Below are positions 30,534 through 35,427 of a stretch of DNA of 49,243 nt, one piece after another (the stretch's first letter is position 1; each line of letters begins with the position of its first letter). The notes below the pieces were generated by a model, which saw only the letters and a list, made by a program, of their open reading frames with translations, did no database searches and was not told the DNA's origin. The stretch covers positions 1-49,243 of the forward strand of contig JAIBBJ010000157.1 of the NCBI GenBank assembly GCA_019694735.1. Reading direction: 5' to 3'. Both the position numbers and the translations under genes were made by a program. The DNA is from Gemmatimonadaceae bacterium. Its GTDB lineage: Bacteria; Gemmatimonadota; Gemmatimonadetes; Gemmatimonadales; Gemmatimonadaceae.

Positions 30534-31001
30534 ATGGATCGCAGGGACTTCGTGAAGGCCCTCGGACTCGGCGTCGCCCTCGGCGCCGGGTCCCGGGCAC
30601 TCGCGGCGCAGCAGGCGCCGCTGCCCACGCTCACGGTCTACAAGGACCCGGGCTGCGGCTGCTGCGAGGCGTGGATCGACCACGTGAAGGCGAACGGCTT
30701 CAAGGTCACGGCGATGAACACCCAGCAGCTGCCTGCCGTGAAGGCGCAGCTCGGGGTGCCAGCGGGACTCGAGAGCTGCCACACGGTCGTGGCCGGCAGC
30801 TACCTCATCGAGGGGCACGTGCCGGCCGACGACGTGAAGCGGATGCTCCGCGAGAAGCCGGCGATCCGCGGCATCGCGGTGCCCGGGATGCCGATCGGCT
30901 CGCCGGGCATGGAGCAGGGGCCGCCGTCGGGCTACCAGAAGTACCAGGTGATCGCCTTCACGGCGAACGGCACCCGCAGCGTGTTCGCACGGCACGGCTG
31001 A
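30534..31001 (+). CDS. DUF411 family protein, Tat-exported, probable metal-binding
   Basis: 155 residues. The N-terminus R-R-D-F-V-K-A-L-G-L-G is a Tat signal, and the signal peptide ends L-A-A before Gln26. The DUF411 domain carries Y-K-D-P-G-C-G-C-C (three clustered Cys), a later L-E-S-C-H-T and the end segment Q-K-Y-Q-V-I-A-F. Family members are often found near copper resistance genes and are thought to bind copper, but no copper gene is visible here. A GGAGG ribosome site favours ATG 30534 over the overlapping ATG 30530, which is out of frame. Confidence 0.88.
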   Translation: MDRRDFVKALGLGVALGAGSRALAAQQAPLPTLTVYKDPGCGCCEAWIDHVKANGFKVTAMNTQQLPAVKAQLGVPAGLESCHTVVAGSYLIEGHVPADDVKRMLREKPAIRGIAVPGMPIGSPGMEQGPPSGYQKYQVIAFTANGTRSVFARHG

Positions 31002-31019: not shown

Positions 31020-32198
31020 TCAGGGCCGCGCGAGTCCCGCCAGCGCCTCGCGGACGTCGGCGCCGTCGAACCGCTCGAGCGCCGAGATCGCACGCCGTCG
31101 CGTGACCGGCGCCTCGGTGGACTTCGCGATCGCCACGAGCTTCTCGCGCGCCGCGCGCGACCCGTCACGGGCGAGCACGCCGATCATGCTCCCGCGCGTC
31201 TCGGTGTCCGGCGCAGCGTCGTACAGCGCGACGAGCTCGGCCCCGCTCGCACCGGCCCGCTCGCCGAGCAGGGTGGCGCGGCGGCGCACCGTCAGTGGCT
31301 GCGCCTCATCGCGCGCCAGGGTGAGCAGCCACGCGCGCGTCTCCCGGCCGCCGACCGATGCCGCCGCGGCGAGGATCGAGTCGCGCGCGCCGACACCCTC
31401 AAGGCCGGGAAGCGCCGCCCGCAGCGCCCGCGCATCGTCACCCGACGCCAGGTCGTTCCCGAGCGCCACCGCCGCACTCGCGCGCGCGGACTCCGGACGC
31501 CGGCGATCGGCGAGGATCGCGCGCAGCTCGCGCCGGGCGCGCGGGTCGCTGCTGCGGCCGAGCGCTCGGATCGCCTCGTGCGCCAGCCACCCATCGTCGC
31601 CGATCGCGCCCAGCGCGATCAGCGCCGCGATGCCCTCCCCGCCCTCGAGCCGGGCGAGCGCGGCGACCGCCGCGCGCCGGGTGTCCCGCGCGCGGTCCTC
31701 GTCGCGCGCCACGGCGGCGAGCTCGGCGCCAGGCACGGGCGCCGGGAGAAGCGCGACTCCGGCGATGGCCTCGCGCGCGGTGCGACCCGTGGCGCCGCGG
31801 GCGAGGCGCAGCAGCCACTCGGCGACCTCCGGGCCCGCGACGCGCCCGAGATCGATCGCGGTGCTGTCGCGCTGCAGCGGACCCACGAACGCCTCCGCGC
31901 GGAGCACCTCGCCGGCCAGCACCGTCACGCGGAGCCGCAGCGGGCCGACTGCGCACGCGATCGCACTGCCGTCCGTCGTCCATCCGTCGCCGGCCCGTGC
32001 CGCCCACGTGTCGCCACCGATCCGGTACCAGGTGCGTCCATCGCCGCAGGCGTCGGCGCGCGCGGCCGTGCTGAACTCCGCGCGGCCATCGCCGATCGCC
32101 GCGAGCCGCCGCTCGAGGGTGGCGCCCTGTGCGCGCACCACCCCCGCGGCGACCATCCCCAGCGCGACCGCGCCGAGGCCGATCGCCGCGCGCCTCAC
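31020..32198 (-). CDS. Exported HEAT-repeat protein, second of a pair
   Basis: 392 residues. The signal peptide ends V-R-A before Gln24. The first ~130 mature residues form a non-repeat domain with Cys residues (A-D-A-C-G-D-G-R-T-W-Y). The rest is HEAT-type helical repeats of about 30-35 residues, for example R-R-A-A-V-A-A-L-A-R-L-E-G-G, then H-E-A-I-R-A-L-G-R-S-S-D-P-R-A and R-R-R-A-I-S-A-L-E-R-F. The GTG start overlaps the stop of the first HEAT gene (GTGA), so they are translationally coupled. It is the last gene of the sigma/anti-sigma operon. Function is unknown; a periplasmic scaffold is likely. Confidence 0.82.
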   Translation of the reverse strand: MRRAAIGLGAVALGMVAAGVVRAQGATLERRLAAIGDGRAEFSTAARADACGDGRTWYRIGGDTWAARAGDGWTTDGSAIACAVGPLRLRVTVLAGEVLRAEAFVGPLQRDSTAIDLGRVAGPEVAEWLLRLARGATGRTAREAIAGVALLPAPVPGAELAAVARDEDRARDTRRAAVAALARLEGGEGIAALIALGAIGDDGWLAHEAIRALGRSSDPRARRELRAILADRRRPESARASAAVALGNDLASGDDARALRAALPGLEGVGARDSILAAAASVGGRETRAWLLTLARDEAQPLTVRRRATLLGERAGASGAELVALYDAAPDTETRGSMIGVLARDGSRAAREKLVAIAKSTEAPVTRRRAISALERFDGADVREALAGLARP

Positions 32199-34042
32199 CG
32201 GTCGATGAGCTCGAGGAGCAGCTGTGTCGTGCGCGGGTCCTTCTTGCGCTGCAGCGCACCGATCGCGGCGCGGCGCAGCTGCGGGTCGGTGCCGCTGCGC
32301 ACGACCTCGATGAGCTTGTCGGTGGCCTCCGGCTCGGCGCGGACCCCGAGGAGCTCGACGATCTCCATCCGCGCGGAGCGCGACGTGGCGCCGTCGTAGA
32401 GGCGGCCGAGCTGCGCGATCGGGAGCTCGCGGCCGAGGCGGCCGAGGATGGCATCGCGCACCTCGCTCGGCTCGTCCTCCCGCTGCATCAGTGCGGTGAC
32501 CCAGGTGCGCGAGGGCTCATCGGTCGCGCGGGCGAGGACGTTCGCCGCCGCGACCTTGAGCCGGGTGGTCTCGAGGCGCGCGTAGGCGCCGCGGAGCCAC
32601 GCCGCGTCCTCGGGCGAGATGCGCTCGTCCTCGACCGTGGCGTAGCGACCGGCGGCCCGGCGTGCGGCGCTGGCCGCGGAGTCGTAGGCCATCGCCTGCG
32701 CCGGGCTGAGGGCGCGCGGCGTGCTGCGCGCCTCGGCGGCCGCGCGCACCTCCTCGGCGGCGAACACCGTCGCCTGGCCGGAGACGGTGGGCGCCATCGG
32801 GGGCTCCGGCGCCGCGGCCGGCCGCGGGAGGGTCATCACCCGCGGCGTGGTGGAGGCCACGGACTGCCCGCCCGCGACGGCGAAGCTCGGCTCGCAGTCG
32901 CCGCACGAGAAGGAGTACGCGAAGCCGTTGGTGCGCGCCGCGATCCGGTCGAAGCTGGCGATGGCATCGAGCCGCAGGCGTTCCGGCGCGGCGCTGCGCT
33001 CGACGAGCGCCCGGATGGCCGCGCGCGCCTTGGGCGCCCGCATCCGGCCGAGCGACTGCACGGCCGCGCGCTGCACGCCGACGTTCGCGTCGGTGCGCAC
33101 GATCTCCTCGAGCGTCGCCGCGGCTTCGTCGGTGTCGACGCGGCCGAGGTAGCCGACCGCGTCATCGCGCACGTTCGGGCTCGGGTCCTCCTTGGCGACG
33201 CGGGCGAGGCGCGTGCGCGCGGTCGCGTCCTCGCTCCGCTGCCCGAGCATCATCACGGCGCTCGTCCGCAGCGGGATCGAGCACTCGTCCTTGCGGTCGA
33301 GCACCCGGCCGAGGATCGGCATCGCGGCGTCGGGGTCGTTGCGGAGCAACGCGCTGAGGGCGGAGGCGCGGACCGACAGCTCCTCCTGGTCGCAGGCGGC
33401 GCCCGCCGACGCGCCGGCGGCGGAGGCGCTCGCCGAGGCACTCGCGGCGGCGCGCGCCCGGCCGGCCGCGGCCGCGTCACCGCGGCTCGCGAGCGCGGAG
33501 TTGATGCGCGCCGCGAGCGACTCGGCCTCATCGCCGTTCCCGGCGCGCGGGAAGCGCGCCTTGCGGGCGTCGAGCGCCGCGATCGCCTCGCGCAGCTCGG
33601 CGGTGCCGCCGATGCGGTAGAGCGAGAACGCCTGCCAGTAGAGCGCGTCGGGCGCGTACGCGGAGGCCGGCGTGCGCGCCGCCACCTGGGCGAACAGCGC
33701 CGCCGACCGCTTCCACTCGCCGCGGTTCAGCAGGTTGCGCGCCTCGCGGTAGAGCGAGTCGGCGCCGTCCTGCGGAAAGCGGGTCTGCGGGATGAGGAAC
33801 GCGCGGTCGTCGTCGCTCCACGTGGCCGCGAGGCCGCCGGCCCAGGCCGACCCGCCCGCCGAGGCGAGCGGCGACAGCGCGACCGGCGCGCGCACGGGCG
33901 CCGCAGGGGCGACGGGCGCCACGGGTGCCACGGGTGCCACGGGCGCGGCGGGCGTGGGCCAGCCCGCGGACGCGCCTTGCTGCGCCGCGACGGGAGCCAG
34001 CGGGAGCGACACGAGGGTCGCGAGGAGGAACGGACGGAGCAT
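32195..34042 (-). CDS. Exported HEAT/TPR-repeat protein, first of a pair
   Basis: 615 residues. The signal peptide ends V-A-A before Gln21, then comes a Pro-Ala-Val tandem repeat segment (about 29-47). A TPR-like region follows (L-Y-R-E-A-R-N-L-L-N-R-G-E-W-K-R-S-A-A-L). Then come many HEAT repeats (N-V-R-D-D-A-V-G-Y-L-G-R-V, and G-V-Q-R-A-A-V-Q-S-L-G-R-M) flanking a F-S-C-G-D-C motif near the middle. ATG 34042 has GAGG about 8 bases upstream; a longer frame exists but has no signal peptide. It starts 10 bases after the putative anti-sigma gene and overlaps the next HEAT gene by GTGA. Confidence 0.82.
   Translation of the reverse strand: MLRPFLLATLVSLPLAPVAAQQGASAGWPTPAAPVAPVAPVAPVAPAAPVRAPVALSPLASAGGSAWAGGLAATWSDDDRAFLIPQTRFPQDGADSLYREARNLLNRGEWKRSAALFAQVAARTPASAYAPDALYWQAFSLYRIGGTAELREAIAALDARKARFPRAGNGDEAESLAARINSALASRGDAAAAGRARAAASASASASAAGASAGAACDQEELSVRASALSALLRNDPDAAMPILGRVLDRKDECSIPLRTSAVMMLGQRSEDATARTRLARVAKEDPSPNVRDDAVGYLGRVDTDEAAATLEEIVRTDANVGVQRAAVQSLGRMRAPKARAAIRALVERSAAPERLRLDAIASFDRIAARTNGFAYSFSCGDCEPSFAVAGGQSVASTTPRVMTLPRPAAAPEPPMAPTVSGQATVFAAEEVRAAAEARSTPRALSPAQAMAYDSAASAARRAAGRYATVEDERISPEDAAWLRGAYARLETTRLKVAAANVLARATDEPSRTWVTALMQREDEPSEVRDAILGRLGRELPIAQLGRLYDGATSRSARMEIVELLGVRAEPEATDKLIEVVRSGTDPQLRRAAIGALQRKKDPRTTQLLLELIDR
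33902..33955 (-). repeat. Tandem 9-bp repeat encoding Pro-Val-Ala units
   Basis: About six imperfect copies of a 9-base unit (for example CACGGGTGC at 33920-33928 and again at 33929-33937) encode the A-P-V-A-P-V segment just after the signal peptide of the first HEAT protein. The copies are nearly identical, so copy number may vary by slippage without shifting the frame. Confidence 0.75.
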
Positions 34043-34052
34043 CGGGAAGTCC

Positions 34053-34772
34053 TCAGTAGCCGCCGGTGTACGACGCGGCGACGGTGCGCAGGCGCGGCAC
34101 CACGTCGCGTTCGGACACCGCATCGGCGATGAACGTGAGTTCGTCGGCGCGGGGCGCCGTGCGGAGACGCGCGACCTGCGCGAGCACCAGCTCGAGGTCC
34201 TCGAGCAGCGCGCGCATCCGCGGGTCGGAGGCGGCGGGGGAGTCCATCAGGAGCCGCGTCGTCACGAGCAGCTGCGCGGCGTCGGCGACGAAGCGCTCGT
34301 CGCCGCGCAGTGAAGCGGCGCGCGCCGAGGTGGGGAGCGAGTCGAGCAGGGCGGCGGTGCGCGCGACGTACTCGTAGGTGGCACGCTGGACCGGATCGAC
34401 CACGACGACCGCCGGCAGGGGCGTGAGCGTCCGGCTCGCCGGGTCCGTGGCCGGCCGTTCGGCGACCGGACCGACCGTCGGGCCCGACGGGGCCGTGACG
34501 CGGCCGATGCCGATCCCCACGAGGAGCGTCGCGGCGACGCCCGCGGCCGGTGCCCACCACGCGCGGCGCGTCCCCCGCACCGCGGGGGCCACCGGTGGGC
34601 GCCCGGCCCCGGCGCGCACGAGCGGTGCATCGAATGCCTCCGCCTCCACGCGGCCCCAGAGCGCGTCGAAGTCGGGCGGCGCGGACGGCACGCGGTACGT
34701 CGCGCGCGCCTCCTGCAGCACCGCATCCAGCCGTTCGTCGTCCATCGGTCCACCTGCGTCGGAATGGGTCAT
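34053..34772 (-). CDS. Putative anti-sigma factor (single-pass membrane protein)
   Basis: 239 residues. An N-terminal cytoplasmic part (about 1-75: M-D-D-E-R-L-D-A-V-L-Q-E-A-R, then F-D-A-L-W-G-R-V-E-A-E-A-F) precedes one membrane helix (about 85-105, W-A-P-A-A-G-V-A-A-T-L-L-V-G-I) and a periplasmic helical domain. There is no zinc-binding HxxxCxxC, so it is not a classical ZAS anti-sigma. The assignment rests on position and architecture. Its ATG overlaps the sigma gene stop (ATGA), a hallmark of sigma/anti-sigma pairs. The two HEAT genes follow. Confidence 0.72.
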   Translation of the reverse strand: MTHSDAGGPMDDERLDAVLQEARATYRVPSAPPDFDALWGRVEAEAFDAPLVRAGAGRPPVAPAVRGTRRAWWAPAAGVAATLLVGIGIGRVTAPSGPTVGPVAERPATDPASRTLTPLPAVVVVDPVQRATYEYVARTAALLDSLPTSARAASLRGDERFVADAAQLLVTTRLLMDSPAASDPRMRALLEDLELVLAQVARLRTAPRADELTFIADAVSERDVVPRLRTVAASYTGGY

Positions 34773-35338
34773 GCGAAGTCCCTCAGTGCGTCGCGCAGCC
34801 GGCCACGCGCCTCGAAGAGCCGGGCCTTGCTGGTGCCTTCCGCGACGCCGAGCATCTGCCCGATCTCGGCGTGCGTGTAGCCCTCCAGGTCGTGCAGCAG
34901 CACCGTCATCCGGAGGCCCTCCGGCAGCGCGTCGATCGCCGCGTGCAGGCGGACCTTGAGGTCGGGGTCCACGTCGCGGCTGGGTGCCGCGAACGCGTCG
35001 CCGTCCTCCAGCCCCTCCTCGCGTTCCCGGATCCGCTTCACGCGCCGCATCTCGTTGAGCGCGGTGGTGACGGCGATCCGGTGCAGCCAGGTCGTGAAGG
35101 CCGAGTCGCCGCGGAAGCCCGCGAGCTGCCGGAAGGCCTTCACGAAGACGTCCTGCACGAGGTCGCGCGCCAGCTCCTCGTCCCCGCAGATGCGGTGGAC
35201 GAGCCGGTGCACGCGCTTCGCGTGCCGGTCGTACAGCGTCCGGGCGGCGATCCGGTCTCCGGCAACGGTGCGCGAGACCAGCGTCGGTTCGTCCGGCCCC
35301 GGGTCCGGGGTCTGGAGGGCGATGGCAGGGTGCGTCAT
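34769..35338 (-). CDS. ECF-family RNA polymerase sigma factor
   Basis: 189 residues. Region 2 spans about 25-95: A-A-R-T-L-Y-D-R-H-A-K-R-V, D-E-E-L-A-R-D-L-V-Q-D-V-F-V-K-A-F and T-W-L-H-R-I-A-V-T-T-A-L-N. Region 4 spans about 125-180: A-I-D-A-L-P-E-G-L-R-M-T-V-L-L-H, then Y-T-H-A-E-I-G-Q-M-L-G-V-A-E-G-T-S-K-A-R-L. Length fits an ordinary ECF sigma factor without extensions. ATG 35338 is chosen; GTG 35359 would add seven residues. It heads the operon with the anti-sigma and two HEAT proteins. I could not identify an autoregulated promoter upstream. Confidence 0.9.
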   Translation of the reverse strand: MTHPAIALQTPDPGPDEPTLVSRTVAGDRIAARTLYDRHAKRVHRLVHRICGDEELARDLVQDVFVKAFRQLAGFRGDSAFTTWLHRIAVTTALNEMRRVKRIREREEGLEDGDAFAAPSRDVDPDLKVRLHAAIDALPEGLRMTVLLHDLEGYTHAEIGQMLGVAEGTSKARLFEARGRLRDALRDFA

Positions 35339-35427
35339 CAGGTTCGCGCGGTTGGACACCGACCCGGCCGGAAGCGTTGGGGGCCGCCGGGAGAGACCTT
35401 CCGCCCCGGGGATCGTCCATGGATGCA

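Follow-up and report, generated by a model that had tools for sequence, protein, structure and literature searches.

In Escherichia coli the gene for RseA, a single-pass anti-sigma factor without zinc, is followed by the gene for its exported partner RseB, which acts on RseA by controlling a protease step (RseA/RseP-like). The Gemmatimonadota, to which the locus described here belongs, are common inhabitants of soil and water whose genetics has hardly been studied. Among class I anti-sigma factors (ASDI) about 44% lack the zinc motif and many have one transmembrane (TM) helix, and CnrY of Cupriavidus metallidurans is a class II anti-sigma (PMC7406223).

We analysed a stretch of 49,243 nucleotides from a Gemmatimonadaceae bacterium (assembly GCA_019694735.1, contig JAIBBJ010000157.1; hereafter the window), in which an ECF sigma gene is followed by genes for a putative anti-sigma and two exported HEAT-repeat proteins. 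The module is real and conserved, and we give a probability of about 0.5 to its being CnrYXH- or RseA/RseB-like, with HEAT solenoids acting as the periplasmic partners of the anti-sigma. No published description of it was found in the literature on ECF/anti-sigma pairs with HEAT repeats or on Gemmatimonadetes ECF sigmas; HEAT appears in one paper, in a list of Solibacter paralogues.

Organisation of the locus

Sigma, the putative anti-sigma and the HEAT proteins H1 and H2 are encoded by four minus-strand ORFs, in the places where a sequence-only reading of this DNA had put them. The sigma stop and the anti-sigma ATG overlap as ATGA, 10 nt separate the anti-sigma stop from the ATG of H1, and the H1 stop overlaps the GTG of H2 as GTGA, exactly as that reading had described. 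An alternative anti-sigma start is possible at ATG 34745, which has AGGTGG ahead of it, so the ATGA coupling may not mark the real start of this protein. The neighbour upstream of the operon is divergent and the downstream one (DUF411) convergent, which leaves the four genes as an isolated unit. This convergent neighbour, at 30534-31001 (+), is a Tat-exported DUF411 protein. Junctions, isolation on the minus strand and conserved gene order agree with the single coupled operon proposed earlier, and we add to it a promoter of autoregulatory type.

The sigma factor (189 aa; 34769-35338, minus strand) matches Sigma70_r2 (2e-17) and Sigma70_r4_2 (2e-14) in Pfam and, in NCBIfam, TIGR02937 (89 bits, cut-off 42.9). 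It contains sigma regions 2 and 4 only, as is characteristic of ECF factors, and its nearest solved chains are of sigma-E/SigH type. Its start was set at 35338 and not at GTG 35359, because the −10 element of the promoter sits on that GTG.

The second protein (239 aa, or from ATG 34745; 34053-34772, minus strand) is recognised by no family model, and we call it a putative zinc-free membrane anti-sigma from its position and its topology in the AlphaFold model. Two cytosolic helices (aa 12-25 and 35-47), with pLDDT of about 80-90 in the monomer model, are followed by a TM helix (aa 73-93) and a periplasmic helical bundle (aa 127-237; 34062-34394, minus strand; delimited from the alignment, the AlphaFold model and VIA-align), where pLDDT is mostly above 90. 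A strongly conserved stretch of the bundle reads TTRLLLDSPAGxDPRxRxLLEDLELVLAQ in the anti-sigma alignment. The lack of a zinc motif noted earlier extends to the whole family: HxxxCxxC occurs in none of 96 members, cysteine in just three of them and a TM helix in 93, and the window protein has neither the motif nor a single Cys. Searches gave no Pfam match in 19 members, no NCBIfam match for the window protein and no solved chain related to it by sequence. The fold matches of the bundle are common four-helix arrangements with Z up to 11, a value within the chance range for helical bundles; since they are generic, no fold relation is claimed.

Both H1 (615 aa; 32195-34042, minus strand) and H2 (392 aa; 31020-32198, minus strand) start with a signal-peptide-like segment and match HEAT_2 of Pfam (1e-22 and 3e-12, respectively). 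This domain was found in 19 of 19 H1 proteins tested, and an N-terminal TPR/BamD-like stretch occupies about aa 88-184 of H1. H2 consists of an N-terminal β domain (aa 38-119) and a HEAT solenoid (model pLDDT 89.5); the nearest solved folds in Foldseek are HEAT-derived alphaRep proteins (E 2e-6). Family match in H1 and solenoid fold in the model of H2 thus make both of them HEAT-repeat proteins. Alignments revealed two conserved cysteine pairs, C217 and C254 of H1 (both kept in 82 of 96 proteins) and C51 and C82 in the β domain of H2 (both kept in 88 of 96). They probably form disulfides and would fit folded periplasmic domains. A C-G-D-C motif in H1 had been suggested as redox-active or metal-binding. 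It is indeed present (C380/C383), but it lies in a variable linker and no other H1 protein among the 96 has a CxxC, and we rejected it as a conserved redox or metal site.

Conservation of the module

Relatives of H1 were searched for in 121 genomes of the order and found in 84 of them at E 1e-10, while the alignment of the anti-sigma, run against 249 genomes of the phylum, detected this protein in 141. It is absent from members of the same genus with genomes of 1.8-2.3 Mb. In a scan of named genomes, nearly all of the best 80 of 140 loci are titled Gemmatimonadota or Gemmatimonadetes, with one Longimicrobium; two of these 80 bear other titles, 'unidentified' and simply 'bacterium'.

We translated the flanking DNA of 151 loci in six frames and compared it with profiles of all four proteins; 132 of the loci are distinct by the anti-sigma C-terminus, and the two source collections overlap. 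Sigma, anti-sigma, H1 and H2 stand in the same order and on the same strand at 112 of the 151 loci across the Gemmatimonadota, far beyond chance. At a further 17 the other three genes are present and H2 is undetectable, and the remainder are cut by contig ends, except for two distinct loci without detectable sigma. At locus L187, with anti-sigma, H1 and H2, no sigma was detectable upstream though the contig continues, which is either a sequence error or a real loss. Away from contig ends, no anti-sigma without H1 was found among the 151 loci, and six H1 copies that looked orphan either belong to complete operons or sit where a contig ends. H1 and H2 are hence conserved partners of the sigma pair, as the sequence-only reading required.

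Gene calls at ten loci without detectable H2 showed that several of them consist of sigma, anti-sigma and H1 alone, and most of these several belong to other families of the class. These three therefore form the core of the module, and H2 is not essential to its design. The flanks of the operon vary among relatives. Two subtypes were distinguished: A, found in the window, with an H2 of ~390 aa, and B, with an H2 of ~260 aa. The genome of the window has a second, paralogous operon of subtype B, split across contigs C177 and C217. Four operons (L050, L051, L052 and L333) carry an additional H1 or H2, which suggests duplication of HEAT genes inside the operon.

A shared promoter and its possible regulon

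An unbiased count of spaced words, made with no prior model in the regions upstream of the sigma gene at 122 loci, identified AACCC-N15-TGTC at 57 of them versus 1.3 expected. The matrix derived from this word (C-AAC-C/G-C-TTY, 11-12 nt, GTGTC-NN-A) fits 118 of the 122 loci, including the window, and 97% exceed the 99th percentile of shuffled sequence. The consensus ahead of the sigma gene is CAACSCTTY-N11-GTGTCNNA, with the forms AACGCTTT...GTGTCCAAC in subtype A and CGCAACCCT...GTGTC in subtype B. This motif discovery places the operon promoter of the window at 35352-35379 (minus strand); it reads CAACGCTTCC-N10-GTGTCCAA, with the −35 element at 35379-35370 and the −10 element GTGTC at 35359-35355, so that transcription would start ~10 nt ahead of the sigma ATG. 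The genome of the window has no second perfect match to the motif, and no sigma-70 promoter consensus was found inside the operon. In related ECF genes whose anti-sigmas are of zf type, the −35 element is the same but the −10 element differs (GTGAC, GAGTC). A conserved ECF-type promoter, with an AAC-type −35 element, in front of a sigma gene would imply autoregulation, and the CAACSCTTY-N11-GTGTC promoter is probably read by the operon's own sigma.

Genome scans with one mismatch allowed, and with the reversed pattern as a control, yielded 19 matches versus 0 reversed in six genomes of the genus, 29 versus 3 for the subtype A form in the family and 57 versus 7 for the subtype B form in the order. 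Besides the operons themselves, the genes recurring 3' of the motif encode DUF5916/CBM9-like proteins, MacB-type permeases, HlyD/CusB-type membrane fusion proteins, a kind of TonB-plug protein, an M28 peptidase and an uncharacterised exported protein. Some of these sites may be read by other ECF sigmas. The motif precedes DUF5916/CBM9-like exported proteins in several species (L207, L213, L225, L230, L231, L261, L291 and L293), and MacB-type permeases, HlyD/CusB-type fusion proteins and the uncharacterised exported protein at sites among L206-L237 and L250-L308. This last protein (L208, L282) begins FLDCxxFxC.

A similar promoter lies ~27 nt 5' of a conserved hairpin RNA in six species of the genus, which makes the RNA a candidate ECF-driven small RNA. 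The RNA (L312-L322) is ~90 nt long and its core is GTGCRGGYCGGTGCTGGTGGGGGGCCGGCC, with seven pairs showing both-sided changes among five sequences. It occurs as one copy per genome in genomes of three genera and has no credible match in Rfam. The copy in the genome of the window (G000:C224:54435-54557, minus strand) adjoins a DUF5916-like gene. We rejected a strict co-distribution of hairpin RNA and operon, as three genomes have the RNA, there with an altered −10 element, and no detected operon.

Sensing from the periplasm and alternative explanations

The module, its conservation, promoter and topology have been computed, and on them we base the following mechanism, that of a self-amplifying signalling module across the membrane. 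In the cytosol, the two anti-sigma helices would hold the ECF sigma. In the periplasm H1, an exported solenoid, would bind the helical bundle of the anti-sigma, in most cases jointly with H2. The HEAT proteins would then decide, in response to the condition of the envelope, whether sigma is held or released, similar to the action of RseB on RseA or of CnrX on CnrY; the signal and the direction of its effect are inferred. Free sigma would use the CAACSCTTY-N11-GTGTC promoter to transcribe the four genes of its operon, and would probably also act on a small set of envelope genes. As the operon is among its targets, sensor and inhibitor would thereby be restored.

Protein trees of 88-90 loci were compared through partial rank correlations of their distances; values given here are for 88 loci. 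For the periplasmic half of the anti-sigma, the correlation is 0.54 with H1 given sigma and 0.26 with sigma given H1. For the cytosolic half, a short segment, which limits the comparison, the order is the opposite (0.43 with sigma given H1, 0.16 with H1 given sigma). The periplasmic half co-varies more strongly with H1/H2 than with sigma. The pattern holds in subtype B; in subtype A the periplasmic preference persists, whereas the cytosolic half has no preference for sigma (0.12 vs 0.22). This split is what the topology would predict if H1 and H2 bound outside and sigma inside, but rates shared by exported proteins can yield similar numbers.

The alternative that survives best holds that sigma and anti-sigma need no partner for sensing, which would run through the periplasmic bundle, and that the HEAT proteins are its outputs, envelope scaffolds made when sigma is active. 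An autoregulated promoter makes every gene of the operon an output, such operons also carry plain output genes, the further candidate targets sharing this promoter motif are genes of the envelope, and H1 with its BamD/YbgF-like TPR end resembles periplasmic assembly scaffolds. However, a pure output should be swapped now and then, and the anti-sigma never stands without H1 except where a contig ends; the closer fit of its periplasmic half to H1 than to sigma also speaks against this explanation. We regard it as a serious contender, though we lean the other way.

The same anatomy would suit solenoids that shield the anti-sigma from a site-1 protease, or present it to one, so that the signal would be proteolysis as in RseA/RseP and not an allosteric change, but no locus inspected has a protease gene within the module and we consider this quite improbable. 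That two common kinds of gene simply happen to adjoin, ECF and HEAT genes both being abundant in these genomes, is refuted by an order kept at more than 100 loci, in several families and with changing flanks.

Returning to HEAT solenoids as periplasmic partners, a wider claim might be made for a phylum-wide ECF class, in which a new family of anti-sigmas would have exported HEAT/TPR solenoids as its co-regulators in the periplasm, in place of proteases or small metal sensors. The regulon of this class would include efflux pumps, envelope proteins of the DUF5916 kind and a hairpin RNA so far undescribed. As a whole, we find this extension rather doubtful. If the partnership itself is true, HEAT solenoids would for the first time be seen to control a sigma factor from the periplasmic side. 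With its readable promoter, a conserved sensor module of this kind offers a direct handle on the envelope stress response of Gemmatimonadota, and testable predictions follow for the promoter, the target genes, the interaction surface and the cysteine pairs.

Comparison with known systems

The CnrYXH system of Cupriavidus metallidurans likewise combines an ECF sigma, a membrane anti-sigma whose cytosolic part is short, and a periplasmic protein encoded adjacently. CnrY has a two-helix cytosolic domain without a zinc motif, and in class II anti-sigmas such a short domain wraps the sigma; the likeness of the anti-sigma described here to it comes from a monomer model, with no sequence match to any solved chain. 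In contrast to H1 and H2, CnrX is a membrane-anchored metal sensor; CnrYXH includes no HEAT protein, and gene order and partners differ.

With the RseA/RseB/RpoE system of E. coli the locus shares a single-pass, zinc-free anti-sigma gene followed by the gene for an exported partner, and an RpoE-kind sigma is among the nearest solved relatives of the window sigma. RseB, however, is a lipoprotein-like two-domain β protein and not a solenoid, and RseA has the class I anti-sigma domain of Pfam, for which there is no match in 19 members of the present family. Regarding ASDI in general, the zinc motif is missing in ~44% and many have one TM helix, as in the anti-sigma described here (PMC7406223), whereas their three-helix bundle with a fourth helix contrasts with the two modelled cytosolic helices of a protein that lacks a Pfam match.

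The module is an ECF sigma with a membrane anti-sigma and a periplasmic partner, and we file it under neither the ASDI nor the CnrY families. What it adds to these systems is the operon promoter, a zinc-free anti-sigma family without Pfam match, the mirror-tree split between the two halves of the anti-sigma and the conserved cysteine pairs of H1 and H2.
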